Positions 2,639-8,522 of a DNA stretch of 50,122 nucleotides are shown here, in pieces. The DNA is from Candidatus Kaiserbacteria bacterium (GTDB taxonomy: Bacteria; Patescibacteriota; Minisyncoccia; Phycocordibacterales; UBA2100). The DNA lies in the NCBI GenBank assembly GCA_003164215.1, contig PLSR01000019.1, forward strand, positions 1 through 50,122, given 5' to 3'. The notes under the pieces were generated by a model. The model saw only the letters and a list, made by a program, of their open reading frames with translations. It ran no database searches and was not told the origin of the DNA. The position numbers were made by a program, and so were the translations under genes. The stretch's first letter is position 1, and every line of letters begins with the position of its first letter.

Positions 2639-2679
2639 CTATTCGCCTATTCGCGCGAATTAGACTATAGAGAAATTAG
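2639..2679. repeat. Short interspersed repeat, copy 3
   Basis: Matches 2086-2125 with a 1-nt insertion. Confidence 0.85.
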
Positions 2680-2803: not shown

Positions 2804-3718
2804 CTATACCAGAAGTGCATTAAGCTTTTCGCGTATCAACTCCAAATCCCCTACCAGCGGGCTCTTGGGCCACTTCTCGATAAGCGCAGTCATCGTGCGT
2901 ATGTAGTTCCCGAGGAGATCCTTTTTTGGGGCATTGAATCGCGTGAATATCTCTTCCCCGTTCGTCTCAAAATCAGTGAGAATTTCAGACGTGTTACTGA
3001 TGACATCAGCGGATTTCAGGAGAACTGAGTTATTCGAGAATGTCTTGATATGTTCAAGAGCTTCTTGCTTGCGGTCCGCCCAGGGGAGATCCCTTTTCGT
3101 CTCGGTGACACTTCCGACGAGCAGCGCGACCTCCGCGCCAAAACGTTCTTCTATCATTTCCCGCGTGACCTTTTTCGCCGGAATACTATCCTCCATCGTA
3201 TCGTGCAGTATTCCAGCAACAATGGTATCTTCATCCGCCCCCGCCCGAGCCAGAATGAGGCCGACAGTCAGTGGATGCGTGATGTACGGGATGTCTTTAC
3301 CTTTTCGCTTCTGTTTCTGATACACCTCGTGCGTCTTCATCGAGAATCGTACGGCCTTCTGAATCGCGATTGAATAGATCATACCGTTGGGTCCATTGTA
3401 GCCGACTGCGGTCTCATTCATACATTCAGCAATGATCTCGGCGCACAGCTCATCGGTAATGTACTTTCTCGCAGAAAACGGCACTTCCCCATCACCTTCT
3501 GTGAACGGATCTTCACCGAACATCGACCATAGCGCACTAAGCTTTTCGGGCGTTATATCCGGTCCATACATCTCCTTTAGGCTATTTCGCGTTATCCGTT
3601 TGCACGCCTCGATCGCTTCCGGCAAGCTTTCATACGAACCCCCCTCGTAGCGTTCACTCTCGTCCATGTAGTGATAGTTATCGTCTACAAAGACCCTATA
3701 CTTCTTATTCGTTGTCAT
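2804..3718 (-). CDS. HD-domain (SpoT-like) phosphohydrolase
   Basis: YITHPLTVGLILARAGADEDTIVAGILHDTMEDS...AEVALLVGSVTETKR; likely start MTTNKKYRVF. Confidence 0.8.
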   Translation of the reverse strand: MTTNKKYRVFVDDNYHYMDESERYEGGSYESLPEAIEACKRITRNSLKEMYGPDITPEKLSALWSMFGEDPFTEGDGEVPFSARKYITDELCAEIIAECMNETAVGYNGPNGMIYSIAIQKAVRFSMKTHEVYQKQKRKGKDIPYITHPLTVGLILARAGADEDTIVAGILHDTMEDSIPAKKVTREMIEERFGAEVALLVGSVTETKRDLPWADRKQEALEHIKTFSNNSVLLKSADVISNTSEILTDFETNGEEIFTRFNAPKKDLLGNYIRTMTALIEKWPKSPLVGDLELIREKLNALLV

Positions 3719-3773
3719 ATTGCATTGTCTGTTTAATCTTTTAACGACTCTTAGACGTGCCGTTGCGACTACA

Positions 3774-3961
3774 ACAAACAAAAGCGGCTAAGAGAATTAG
3801 TCCAGCTCGATCGCTGAACGAAATCTCCCAACCGCTTTAGTGGTCAGTCATCTATCTCATGTGGCTCCTCGCAGATTTCCCAAGTTGCCTACCCTTTCGG
3901 GAGAGATAAACGGTTCGCAGACTGGCGAACTCAGTGGTAAGTAATCAAAGAACTACTCTTA
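3774..3961 (-). ncRNA. Candidate structured leader RNA or ncRNA upstream of the HD-domain gene
   Basis: Minus strand: extended -10 TGCTATACT; closing helix TAAGAGTAGTTC / GGACTAATTCTCTTA; hairpins GTTCGC-CAGTCT-GCGAAC and CCC-GAAA-GGG; terminator-like AAAGCGG...CCGCTTTTGTTTGTT. Confidence 0.55.
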
Positions 3962-4089
3962 TAGTATAGCACGATTTTCCCCTTCCCGCCATCCTCCCGT
4001 TCAACATATTTTCAGCGTAATGATTTTTGTTCATACGGTAATATTACAATTTGATTCCTTATCACGGAGGTTGCGGCTATAATGTGCCC

Positions 4090-4791
4090 ATGAGTGATTT
4101 CAGCATCTACTGCGACGAAAGCAATCATCTGGAAAGGGATGGTATATCTGCTATGGTTTTAGGGGCTGTATATGGACCTTCTGAAAAGATTAAGGCCGCA
4201 AATAAGCGCATACGGGAAATAAAGGAAAAGCACAAAATCGGCCCAACCACTGAAGTGAAATGGACAAAAGTTGCACCTAACAAGATAGCTTTTTATCTCG
4301 ATGTAATCGACTATTTCTTTGATAATGACGACCTTCACTTTCGAGCATTGATCGTAAACAAAGACAATCTTGATCATGAAAAATATAACCAAACGCACGA
4401 TGAGTTTTACTACAAAATGTACTTCGAGCTTCTAAGCAAGATTCTTGATCCTCAACAGAAGTATTACATTTATCTTGATATAAAAGACACACGAGGGAGT
4501 CGGAAAGTAAAAAAACTGAGAGACGTGCTGAGTAATAACATGTATGACTTCGGCGGAAATATCATCAAACGAATTCAGCAGGTACGGTCGAATGAAATTG
4601 AGATTTTGCAACTCACCGATCTGCTTATAGGCGCGATGCAATTCTTAAATCGATCAGACGTTAAAAGCGAAGCTAAAAAAACAATAGTCGAAAGAATGAA
4701 GGCACGATCCGGTTATGATCTCTCAAAGTCTACTCTCGTGCGGGAACCAAAGACAAACATTTTTTACTGGGGAGTATATAACCATGCGTAA
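4090..4791 (+). CDS. DUF3800 domain protein
   Basis: MSDFSIYCDESNHLERDGISAMVLGAVYGPSEKIKAANKRIREIKEKHKI...DLLIGAM; characteristic YxDES N-terminus. Confidence 0.8.
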   Translation: MSDFSIYCDESNHLERDGISAMVLGAVYGPSEKIKAANKRIREIKEKHKIGPTTEVKWTKVAPNKIAFYLDVIDYFFDNDDLHFRALIVNKDNLDHEKYNQTHDEFYYKMYFELLSKILDPQQKYYIYLDIKDTRGSRKVKKLRDVLSNNMYDFGGNIIKRIQQVRSNEIEILQLTDLLIGAMQFLNRSDVKSEAKKTIVERMKARSGYDLSKSTLVREPKTNIFYWGVYNHA

Positions 4792-5306
4792 TGTTTATGA
4801 GTTCCCCCCTCCCGGATTGGCTTGATCCTCTTGTGTGCCTTACAGATTTTGACGGAGACCCGAAGGCATATATAGAACACCTCTATACTCTATTCGTGAG
4901 GGATTTTATTACTACCAGGCCACAGTTTAAGGATGCCCCGGTGTTGTTCGACCGTATAATTGAAAGCGGAAAACCAAGAACGTTCACACACATCACTACT
5001 GAGGAGGACAGGGCGACCGGCGATAGAGTACTATCACTGCGAAGATGCGAACGTATCGGTTGGATAAAGGCAATCATCGAACACGTCAATGATCCTGCTA
5101 TTCTTTTTTGGGAGAAGGAACACTTTGCTCCACAAAGAAAAGCCAACCGACTCTACTTCTTTCTAGAGTGTGACAATTTTTTGGTAATTATTGAAGAGAA
5201 AAAGAGCGGACACTTTATGATAACGGCAATCTACGTCGACAATCCTAATCAGAAAAGAAAGCACTTAAAGGCTTACGAGGAGTATAGAAAAATCCAAGGA
5301 TCATAG
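4791..5306 (+). CDS. Uncharacterised protein, tentatively BECR/RelE-like nuclease fold by motif
   Basis: Start overlaps the DUF3800 stop; RRCERIGWIKAIIEH...RLYFFLECDNFLVIIEEKKSGHFMITAIYV pattern. Confidence 0.5.
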   Translation: MFMSSPLPDWLDPLVCLTDFDGDPKAYIEHLYTLFVRDFITTRPQFKDAPVLFDRIIESGKPRTFTHITTEEDRATGDRVLSLRRCERIGWIKAIIEHVNDPAILFWEKEHFAPQRKANRLYFFLECDNFLVIIEEKKSGHFMITAIYVDNPNQKRKHLKAYEEYRKIQGS

Positions 5307-5317
5307 CCAAAAGGCAA

Positions 5318-5356
5318 GAAACCGCCAAGATAGGCGGTTTCAAGAACTCTTTTTAC
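5318..5356 (+). terminator. Rho-independent-like terminator
   Basis: GAAACCGCC-AAGATA-GGCGGTTTC followed by AAGAACTCTTTTT, just after 5306. Confidence 0.6.
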
Positions 5357-5444
5357 ACTAGGTAAATGAGATAACCGAAGTATAGGCCATTTAGGGTTAA
5401 ATTTCAATGAACTGTGGATAAGTATGTGCTTATCAAAAGTCGCT

Positions 5445-8400
5445 CTAAAAGGTGGTAGTTTCATCAATTTCTTTCATTATGCGAACCGTTTCGGATAGTG
5501 CGACGATCATTTTTTGATAGTGTTCTATATCTTCATTGGAAAGTGTCCTCCCCTTTCGATCTTTAAGCCACTTCTGTGCTGGTTGATAGCCACCGATATA
5601 AAAATTGTATGCAATGGCAGGCACGTTGCCGAAAAATTGTTCTTTGTTGATATAGACATTTCCGTCTTTGTATTCGATTTTTTCTACCATATTGGAGCCG
5701 TCGATCGGATAAGTCGTGATGAACTGATTAACCTTTGGTGATTCGAGAAGATGTAGAGTACGTAATTCCCGGCCGAGTGTGACGAACCTCTCAAACTGCG
5801 TCTTATCAGTTGGATATGGAACGCGCGGAAAATCTACACGCAAAAACTCTTTGTACTTCTCCCGATATTCAGGAGAATGTAGGAAAGCATAAATATAATA
5901 AAGAATGTCCTCCGCATTAACTTTTCCAACAATTTCTTGAATACTTTCGACGATCGATTGCCTGAGATTCAATGTGCGAGTTCCATCCTCGTTAAAACAA
6001 TACAATGGAAAAACAACCCCACCTCCTCTCCGAAATATATTTAGATCGACGAGACTTTTGGAAATGAACAAAACATCCCAATTTGGTCCTCCAGCAGCAA
6101 CTGATTGACGTCCAATAATTAGAGCGACATTATCTCCCCTTACCATGTGTCGCATCACTCTATTTTGCCATTCCTGCACAAGATATTGCTGATAATAAAC
6201 TTGGCGATTATCAAATGGCCTTGCAAGGAAATTATTGATGAGATCTGATTGATAAGTGAACCTTTCTTTAAATTCCTTAATTACAAACTTCCTAAAATCT
6301 TTAATCGAAAAAACTTTTTTAACCTCATCGACTGAGGTATTTGGATCATAAAATCTCTTTATTCGTCCTGATAACTCATCGTGGAGCAGATCGGTCGCAA
6401 ACGCATCACGACCTGTCATAAAACCCAGTGAGTTTTCGAGAAATAGTTCCTTGATCAGGAATCCGCGTTCATAATCTGAATAACCAGTCTGGTCCTTAAG
6501 ATCAAAAAATATTTGTTTCTTATCAAGTTTAAGTGGCACCCAAGTAATATTTGAAGCATCTAGTGCACTGAATTTTGAAATTCTGCTCCCGTATAAATCT
6601 GAGTGTGACACCATGGCAAGATCCGAGGCTTTCTTCTCCCCTGTCTTTATTGCGAGTAATATTGCGACCCCCTGCATGATATCGAAAATATTTTCGTCTT
6701 TAGATCCATTTAACGATGTTTCCTGCCTCTTTGCATTGCCATGTAAATCTAAAATGAAAATTTTGTCGAACGTCTTGGCCAAATGCCATCGCATTCCCCT
6801 AAATGTTGGTCCATCCAGATAACTATGGTCCGTAATCATAGCAATGACTCCTGAGCCATTTTTTTCTATCATATCCTCAGCTAGCGCTATGAATTTCACA
6901 TAATCATTTTTCAGCCATATTTTTCTTTCTTTTAGCGGCAATACTCCCCCAGGTTCATAGCGATATTTATTAACAAGAGAATTTGCATATTCGGAGTCAT
7001 TACTACTTACTCCAGCATATGGTGGGTTACCCATGATAACCATGATGGGTAGTTCGTTTTTGACTTTATTTGCCTGATTAGATTCCTCCGTAATCGCCTT
7101 TCCAAAGCCGATATCGAACAGTGTTTTTTGTTCTTCCTCTCCTTTTTCGAGTGAATTTGTGAGATAAATTCCAAGCCGCGCATTTTCGATCTTTGCCCCC
7201 GACTCTTGAATTGTCGACGAGAGTTTGAGATGGGCGATGGTGTATGAAGCCATCATCAGCTCGAAGCCATGCAATCGCGGCAAAAGGTCGCTATTAACAT
7301 ATTGGCTCCAGCGGCCCTCTTGGCTCTCAAACGTTTTGCGAATATGGAGTATTACTTCGTTGAGAAATGTGCCGGTGCCCGTTGCGGGGTCAAGAATTTG
7401 CACTTTATGCACCTGCTCTTTCTTTTTCTTCCCCTGTTCTTCTCTCGTTATCTCAATCTTGGATGCATCGGCAAGACCTTGCGGAAGATCGAACTCTTTT
7501 TTAAGGATGTCATCGACTGCGCGGACGATAAAATGCACAACGGGTAGCGGCGTATAGAAAACGCCCATCTTCTTACGCTCGACAGAATCATATGCCTGCA
7601 GGAAGTCTTCGTAGAAATGGATGATTGGGTCGCGACTGCTGTCACGTTCCACTTTGTAGTAATTGTGGACGATTGCCTGCACATCAGCGTGTGTGAATTC
7701 TTCGCATAATTCGTTGACGATCATCTCGATGCGCGAATCGAACGACGGCCCCGCGATGTGGTCGAAAAAATGCCGTAGAAATGGGTTAGATGCGGGCACG
7801 AGATCGCGCGCCTTTTGGCGTGAGAACGTATCATCGGACTTTTCGTCATAATAACGAGCCGCGAAAAGCCCATAGACGAGCGTCTGTGCATACATATCGG
7901 CAAATTTTGCTTTGTCGAGATCGGCGAGCAGGAGTTTCTTGATCACTTCATAGACAGCCAAGAGATTCTCATTTTTTGCGTTGTTTTCGTCTGCGAGAAA
8001 TTTCTTGATGTTGTCGCGGATGCGGCGTGCTTTGCCCGCCATCACCTTTGCCAAGACTGTGCCTGATTTGATCGGTTCTTTGGATTCTTTGATGAAATCC
8101 TTGACGGTGTCTTCAAGGAGTTGGAATGACGATTCAAATGTCGCGATCGTGTCTCCCTGAAGTTTCCCAATGACTATCGGGTCGGCGTACGGCGCGGTGT
8201 TCCGATAGAACCGAAATTCAAGACCGTTGGTGAGAATAATATTTGAGTAGCCATAGTACCTATCCATCTGTTCGCTTTTTTCTATATCGTCGAGCACGAC
8301 ATTCACATCCTTTGCTTCGGCATAGGCGATGACAACTTTCCCTTTGAGAAATACGAAATCGGGCGCTCCGTATTCACTGCGCTTCGGTTCGTTGATTACG

Positions 8401-8522
8401 ATGAGTCCAGTGATGCCTTCAAACAGTTCCTTTAGAGCAGGGCGGTACGAATGTTCTCGCGCATGGCCACTCGCATGGGTTTCAATGACCTTGGCTATGA
8501 AAGTTCCGACCGGCTTAGGCAT
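5445..8522 (-). CDS. Single-polypeptide restriction-modification enzyme (type IIG / ISP-like, N6-adenine methylase plus PD-(D/E)XK)
   Basis: 1025 aa; N-terminal APDFVFLKGKVVIAYAEAKD; MTase motifs DPATGTGTFL and MGNPPY. Confidence 0.85.
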   Translation of the reverse strand: MPKPVGTFIAKVIETHASGHAREHSYRPALKELFEGITGLIVINEPKRSEYGAPDFVFLKGKVVIAYAEAKDVNVVLDDIEKSEQMDRYYGYSNIILTNGLEFRFYRNTAPYADPIVIGKLQGDTIATFESSFQLLEDTVKDFIKESKEPIKSGTVLAKVMAGKARRIRDNIKKFLADENNAKNENLLAVYEVIKKLLLADLDKAKFADMYAQTLVYGLFAARYYDEKSDDTFSRQKARDLVPASNPFLRHFFDHIAGPSFDSRIEMIVNELCEEFTHADVQAIVHNYYKVERDSSRDPIIHFYEDFLQAYDSVERKKMGVFYTPLPVVHFIVRAVDDILKKEFDLPQGLADASKIEITREEQGKKKKEQVHKVQILDPATGTGTFLNEVILHIRKTFESQEGRWSQYVNSDLLPRLHGFELMMASYTIAHLKLSSTIQESGAKIENARLGIYLTNSLEKGEEEQKTLFDIGFGKAITEESNQANKVKNELPIMVIMGNPPYAGVSSNDSEYANSLVNKYRYEPGGVLPLKERKIWLKNDYVKFIALAEDMIEKNGSGVIAMITDHSYLDGPTFRGMRWHLAKTFDKIFILDLHGNAKRQETSLNGSKDENIFDIMQGVAILLAIKTGEKKASDLAMVSHSDLYGSRISKFSALDASNITWVPLKLDKKQIFFDLKDQTGYSDYERGFLIKELFLENSLGFMTGRDAFATDLLHDELSGRIKRFYDPNTSVDEVKKVFSIKDFRKFVIKEFKERFTYQSDLINNFLARPFDNRQVYYQQYLVQEWQNRVMRHMVRGDNVALIIGRQSVAAGGPNWDVLFISKSLVDLNIFRRGGGVVFPLYCFNEDGTRTLNLRQSIVESIQEIVGKVNAEDILYYIYAFLHSPEYREKYKEFLRVDFPRVPYPTDKTQFERFVTLGRELRTLHLLESPKVNQFITTYPIDGSNMVEKIEYKDGNVYINKEQFFGNVPAIAYNFYIGGYQPAQKWLKDRKGRTLSNEDIEHYQKMIVALSETVRIMKEIDETTTF

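Follow-up and report, generated by a model that had tools for sequence, protein, structure and literature searches.

The window analysed here, a 50,122-nt stretch of contig PLSR01000019.1 from Candidatus Kaiserbacteria bacterium, carries on its minus strand (3962-3773) a leader RNA followed by the gene of a 304-aa protein, in which a small N-terminal module (FHYMDE, ~residues 7-92) is fused to a SpoT-like HD hydrolase domain (~residues 121-247) (Table 1). The leader is a real RNA element and a member of a new structured RNA family. In 5' to 3' order it consists of a -10 box, a pseudoknotted hairpin, a three-way core with the loop GGGAAAUCUGC, and an intrinsic terminator. A DUF3800 gene (4051-4791, plus strand) is divergent from the RNA, and TTCGCGCGAATARGCGAATAG is present in three copies (2086-2106, 2496-2516 and 2639-2659, minus strand), where none is expected by chance.

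Table 1. Features of the leader RNA and its downstream gene, numbered by position in the window.
Feature	Position	Strand	Basis or remark
Extended -10 promoter TGCTATACT	3963..3971	-	sequence
PK0 5' strand ACTG, partner CAGT in the P0 loop	3932..3935	-	Watson-Crick pairing among members (see text)
P0 hairpin GTTCGC-CAGTCT-GCGAAC	3913..3930	-	upstream of P1
Core (candidate aptamer): P1 CGTTTATCTC/GAGATAGATG around P2 and P3, three-way junction	3849..3912	-	covariation
P3 loop region GGGAAATCTGC, near-invariant	3871..3881	-	GAAATCT at 3879-3873
Antiterminator strand CTGACC (CURAYC), pairs with GGTTGG	3842..3847	-	6/6 pairs in 49/51 members
Intrinsic terminator hairpin; 5' arm GGTTGGGAGATTTC frozen, 3' arm drifting with pairing kept	3781..3838	-	folding, alignment
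T-rich tract TTTTGTTTGTT after the terminator stem	3773..3783	-	sequence
Controlled gene, 304-aa protein (FHYMDE module and SpoT-like HD hydrolase)	2804..3718	-	profile and structure matches

Discovery and distribution of the RNA family

The family was assembled from a starting pair identified by DNA comparison, the window and a relative in the same genus (G018, 75% identity over 140 nt), whose copy of the RNA also lies directly 5' of an HD operon. Of the other short BLAST matches, the two inspected (L003, L005) are not homologue-like. A covariance model of the two sequences, searched over 383 genomes of the class without regard to gene context, yielded six further strong members (E 5e-26 to 3e-16). 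A pattern made of the two best conserved blocks was then scanned over 84,980 species genomes, giving 60 stretches in these genomes and 3 more in IMG/VR, and a second covariance model confirmed 51 distinct loci, the window included. A third model contributed a few additional members (379 phylum and 397 order genomes). The pattern matches left unconfirmed by the model come from scattered phyla (Marinobacter and Algoriphagus among others), and their number is close to the ~14 estimated to arise by chance.

The 51 loci are nearly all titled as Patescibacteria, the record titles comprising Nomura-, Uhr-, Magasanik-, Falkow-, Peregrini-, Staskawicz-, Jackson-, Taylor-, Moranii-, Niyogi-, Ryan-, Sungii-, Pace-, Veblen- and Buchananbacteria. 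Among the few loci titled otherwise, the contig of a 'Micavibrio' matches a genome (G389) placed in the window's own class by genome search, and one titled 'Gastranaerophilales' is possibly mis-binned. Strong matches to the RNA occur in ~1-2% of genomes, spread over many genera, and two genomes carry two copies each (L095 and L134 in CALDDM; L154 and L163 in G962). No such leader precedes the HD paralogues in G016, G001 and G029. Patescibacteria thus seem to possess a riboswitch-like control element of their own.

The initial annotation had recognised no Rfam class in the window, and a search of Rfam 15 likewise returned no family at gathering or relaxed thresholds, only sub-threshold chance matches; the ykkC types, T-box and 6S families gave no score at or near their curated thresholds over the RNA. 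In the open-access literature (subscription papers lying outside the search) we found no riboswitch of the candidate phyla radiation, no class typical of Patescibacteria and no matching motif. The ykkC-family riboswitches, including the (p)ppGpp and PRPP classes, are cis-regulatory RNAs tied to nucleotide signalling, as is the case here, but differ in their core and in the genes that they control, and the leader does not match them in Rfam even at a relaxed E-value. T-box leaders, in which an antiterminator opposes a terminator as it does here, likewise give no Rfam match to the RNA, and the genes controlled here are not amino-acid or tRNA genes.

Conserved fold of the leader

The new family is well supported, its members sharing a conserved structured core with covariation. 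In the window, the 193-nt RNA has a minimum free energy of -72.9 kcal/mol (z = -5.4), and none of 200 shuffled sequences is as stable. An alignment of 8 sequences has 97% of its pair cells paired, with double changes in 13 pairs. With 51 sequences, 96.1% of pair cells are paired (slid controls, 36-52%) and 27 of 45 pairs have changed on both sides; double-change cells number 284, compared with 71 for shuffled and 23-55 for slid partners, and covariation is 0.441 versus 0.185 when shuffled. The alignment was fitted to the model; this gives the structure some advantage, though not one as large as the difference seen. In helices P1, P2 and P3, 93-99% of the cells are paired, with many double changes. 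The P3 loop region is identical in the six relatives that were found without any pattern, and a single variant, GGGAAATCTGT, is seen in L156. Conservation also extends to unpaired positions outside the scan pattern, including T12, T48, A49, A80, A98, C100 and T101 (alignment A7).

Upstream of the core, a -10-like box is found in 45 of the 51 members, and in the window transcription is expected to start near 3956-3958. The P0 hairpin has a 5-bp stem in 39 of 50 members, compared with 24% for mismatched partners, and is formed from 32 distinct stems among 45. Its loop is engaged in the pseudoknot PK0, for which at least 3 Watson-Crick pairs are available in 38 of 45 members; with shuffled partners the number is 22.7 on average and at most 32 in 1000 shuffles. 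The paired sequences vary from member to member, with ACTG/CAGT in the window and ATGC/GCAT, AATTG/CAATT, GCTCT/GGAGC, ACGTCA/TGACGT and others elsewhere.

Much of the structure drawn by the initial annotation from the window alone is recovered across the family. The extended -10, the hairpin GTTCGC/GCGAAC, the helix TTATCTC/GAGATAG around CCC-GAAA-GGG and the terminator AAAGCGG...CCGCTTT, to which a T-run is now added, are all present and conserved, and the covariation it had set as a check is strong on 51 sequences. The complementarity it saw between GAAATCT and AGATTTC is the same in 51/51 aligned members, the GAAATCT half having been required by the pattern scan for most of them, and not for the six model-only finds. 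Two of its pairings fared differently. The loop of the hairpin had been paired with a downstream GACTG; this loop instead pairs, through CAGT, with the ACTG just 5' of the hairpin, and other members have this pairing with different sequences. The outer closing helix TAAGAG.TAGTTC/GGACTA.CTCTTA exists in the window and finds no support in the family, where it does not outperform mismatched partners (its own value is reached in 32 of 200 shuffles). Helix P3 (GGC..CTTG/CGAG..GCC) had not been described.

Two further candidates were rejected. Pairing of the GACTR region with sequence past the terminator is weak, with 10 of 200 shuffles reaching it. Translation-coupled attenuation through an upstream open reading frame is contradicted by many members, in which the ATG after GCC is missing or is followed by different codons.

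Terminator, antiterminator and proposed mechanism

The terminator is strong (-35.7 kcal/mol, z -7.3 in the window) and is followed by at least 7 T in 9 nt in 46/51 members. Its 5' arm GGUUGGGAGAUUUC is frozen, reading GGTTGGGAGATTTC in 51/51; the scan required only the first nine letters of the arm, and the ATTTC after the scanned GGTTGGGAG is identical in every member though the scan did not require it. The 3' arm varies within the limits of pairing, mostly by exchange of GC and GU, such that 10 of the 18 pairs of helix 5 change on one side only. A fixed strand opposite a drifting partner usually has a second partner, and 13 of the 14 bases of the 5' arm have an alternative one, CURAYC pairing with GGUUGG and the P3 loop GAAAUCU with AGAUUUC. 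The first of these pairings (CTGACC/GGTTGG in the window), absent from the initial annotation, is represented by a dozen variants of CURAYC, nearly all of them kept paired through R/R and Y/Y changes. The strand is CTAACC in L134, and in L157 a change of the arm to GATTGG is matched by the partner CTGATT, with all six pairs kept. The second pairing is almost invariant and therefore lies beyond the reach of covariation. When the window RNA is folded up to the point before the 3' arm is made, the CUGACC/GGUUGG hairpin forms in the minimum free energy structure and AGAUUUC is free.

Since the 5' arm is shared between the terminator on one side and CURAYC and the P3 loop on the other, terminator and antiterminator are mutually exclusive. 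A mutually exclusive, riboswitch-like terminator had been foreseen in the initial annotation, and this part of its proposal stands; the partner it named does not, as the terminator 3' arm competes with CURAYC and the P3 loop and not with the outer closing helix. Sequence and folding together predict an expression platform of exclusive structures before the gene. At equilibrium the antiterminator is much weaker than the terminator, and switching would therefore need to be kinetic. Some members (L085, L095, L099, L108, L121, L134, L139) have an extra hairpin inserted in the terminator, with a loop resembling GAGGTATAAATC that recurs among them.

Attenuation by the RNA very probably governs the transcription of SpoT-like hydrolase operons, and the leader is likely to be a cis-acting, riboswitch-type attenuator, a reading for which the fold, the exclusive pairings, the promoter-like and terminator sequences and the gene association are all drawn from sequence comparison. 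Transcription would start right after the -10 box, and the 5' pseudoknotted hairpin and the P1/P2/P3 core would fold before the polymerase reaches the decision region. With the terminator 5' arm (GGUUGG G AGAUUUC) held jointly by the P3 loop GAAAUCU and the upstream CURAYC strand, the terminator would be blocked and the hydrolase operon transcribed (ON state); in the OFF state, the 5' arm would pair with the 3' arm and transcription would end at the T-run before the gene. The signal choosing between the states would most likely be a small molecule at the three-way junction, with ligand binding presumably favouring read-through. This arrangement resembles transcription-terminating riboswitches in having a 5' leader, a conserved folded core, an exclusive antiterminator and terminator and a downstream gene for an enzyme of nucleotide-metabolism type, and differs from them in that the ligand is a candidate only and in that the 5' arm is held by two partners, one of them the core loop.

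Controlled genes and the candidate signal

The protein encoded downstream in the window contains an HD_4 domain (PF13328, E 4.5e-17), and its best match among solved structures is 7qoe (E 6e-26), followed by 7qoc and Lmo0812 (4yf1) and, further off, by RelA/SpoT proteins and MESH1 (5vxa/3nr1). We take 7qoe, 7qoc and Lmo0812 to be small alarmone hydrolases or their kin. The R, K, H, HD, ED, D and N residues are invariant among the controlled HD proteins compared, and the window protein has the HD_4 domain and catalytic-type residues of a small alarmone hydrolase or RelA/SpoT HD domain. It shares the HD domain with the small alarmone hydrolases, including MESH1, but unlike them is preceded by a conserved RNA and has its HD domain fused to or paired with small uncharacterised modules.

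The RNA is consistently associated with this class of genes. Downstream sequence is sufficient at 49 loci; 34 of these have an intact SpoT-like HD hydrolase within ~1 kb on the same strand (two more have a broken one), and seven others have a small gene of a type that is elsewhere fused to HD, so that the hydrolase or a linked module is found in 43/49. The position upstream of a SpoT-like HD hydrolase, as originally annotated, is confirmed and conserved before homologous HD genes. Even in the searches that ignored gene context, an HD gene was present at nearly every locus having downstream sequence. HD_4-type genes number only about one or two per megabase-sized genome, so that a randomly chosen site would seldom have one within 1 kb (well under 1% of cases), and the association is not due to chance. 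The modules recur fused to HD, beside it or without it: FHYMDE is part of the HD protein in the window and a separate gene in G018, L093 and L111; CGQLYF forms the C-terminal portion in L082, L084, L135 and L140 and is encoded separately in L085, L120, L124 and L137; and two zinc-ribbon-like modules and NLLDAYIYAD are likewise fused or separate. None of these small modules has a convincing match in Pfam or NCBIfam, and the RNA-led operons reveal small uncharacterised domains swapping places around the hydrolase.

The same gene arrangement bears on whether the RNA acts in cis. A promoter-like sequence, a strong terminator of its own and a conserved exposed loop would suit a stand-alone, trans-acting small RNA of ~190 nt, lying before the operon by accident. 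We consider this very unlikely, because a gene starts shortly past the terminator in nearly all loci, with HD or a linked module in 43/49, and because such an RNA would not need an antiterminator strand opposite a frozen 5' arm. Attenuation might alternatively be governed by a protein (an accessory module, or the hydrolase acting autogenously) or by a tRNA in place of a small molecule. The modules recurring with or without HD suggest that an operon product could bind its own leader, the conserved unpaired nucleotides would suit binding by a protein no less than by a ligand, and other terminator leaders with different 5' halves exist, so that the platform may be shared by several sensors or be used by a protein factor. 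Nevertheless, the downstream modules are mutually unrelated (several families, besides HD-only operons) whereas the RNA core is near-identical, and for the window no T-box match is obtained in Rfam at E up to 10, which makes protein or tRNA control unlikely.

Within the small-molecule attenuator that we favour, the type of hydrolase suggests (p)ppGpp as the ligand, and in this special case the alarmone would cause read-through and thereby production of the hydrolase that removes it. The resemblance of the controlled genes to small alarmone hydrolases is in line with such a new (p)ppGpp riboswitch, as is the long RelA/SpoT (RSH) protein with a synthetase domain encoded in the window's genome. 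However, a RelA_SpoT synthetase is present in 12/16 RNA-positive genomes versus 151/188 in the class, which is no enrichment, and has no match in 4/16 versus 37/188. Three of these four (G320, G863, G091; completeness 92-100%) have both the RNA and HD, and such near-complete genomes with no recognisable (p)ppGpp synthetase weaken the alarmone idea; the fourth, G962, has RNA copies at contig ends only. Together with the lack of an Rfam match to the known ppGpp, PRPP or guanidine riboswitches, this renders a (p)ppGpp riboswitch doubtful, and the nucleotide-alarmone ligand proposed in the initial annotation remains speculation. Other candidates for the ligand are a different nucleotide, a nucleotide coming from a host or invader, and a compound that is not a nucleotide. 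A wider possibility, which we hold only tentatively, is that of a new, largely Patescibacteria-confined riboswitch class responding to an alarmone, or to a related nucleotide of stress or infection, by turning on interchangeable hydrolase-plus-module operons, which may form part of defence islands. A large, covariation-supported family tied to SpoT-like hydrolases offers a testable handle on signalling in these mostly uncultured bacteria, and supplies natural variants ready for ligand screening.

The defence-island link is a lead only. Restriction-modification genes adjoin several of the RNA loci, as in the window (type ISP, 5445-8522) and in L144 (type I by inspection, 3724-7789), an IMG/VR contig whose second ORF begins like the HD protein and continues as something else. 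The 130 neighbouring proteins include six ResIII, three N6_N4_Mtase, three RE_endonuc and five DUF2779 members, and in PADLOC the HD proteins matched no defence system apart from one weak Csx1 hit.

A second type of Patescibacteria leader occurs near 1501-1680 of each of L066, L159, L161 and L162 (also L149 and L150), before non-HD genes. Upstream of its terminator stands a AGAGGAGAGAGTCT-like element that is complementary to the 5' arm (CTTTAGAGGAGA complementary to TCTCTTCTAAAG in L159), and none of the four examples tested reached an Rfam threshold. In L160 (1501-1585, minus strand), the CTGACC/terminator platform of the new family lies before an HD gene with the conserved core absent upstream, a possible case of sensor swap or decay.
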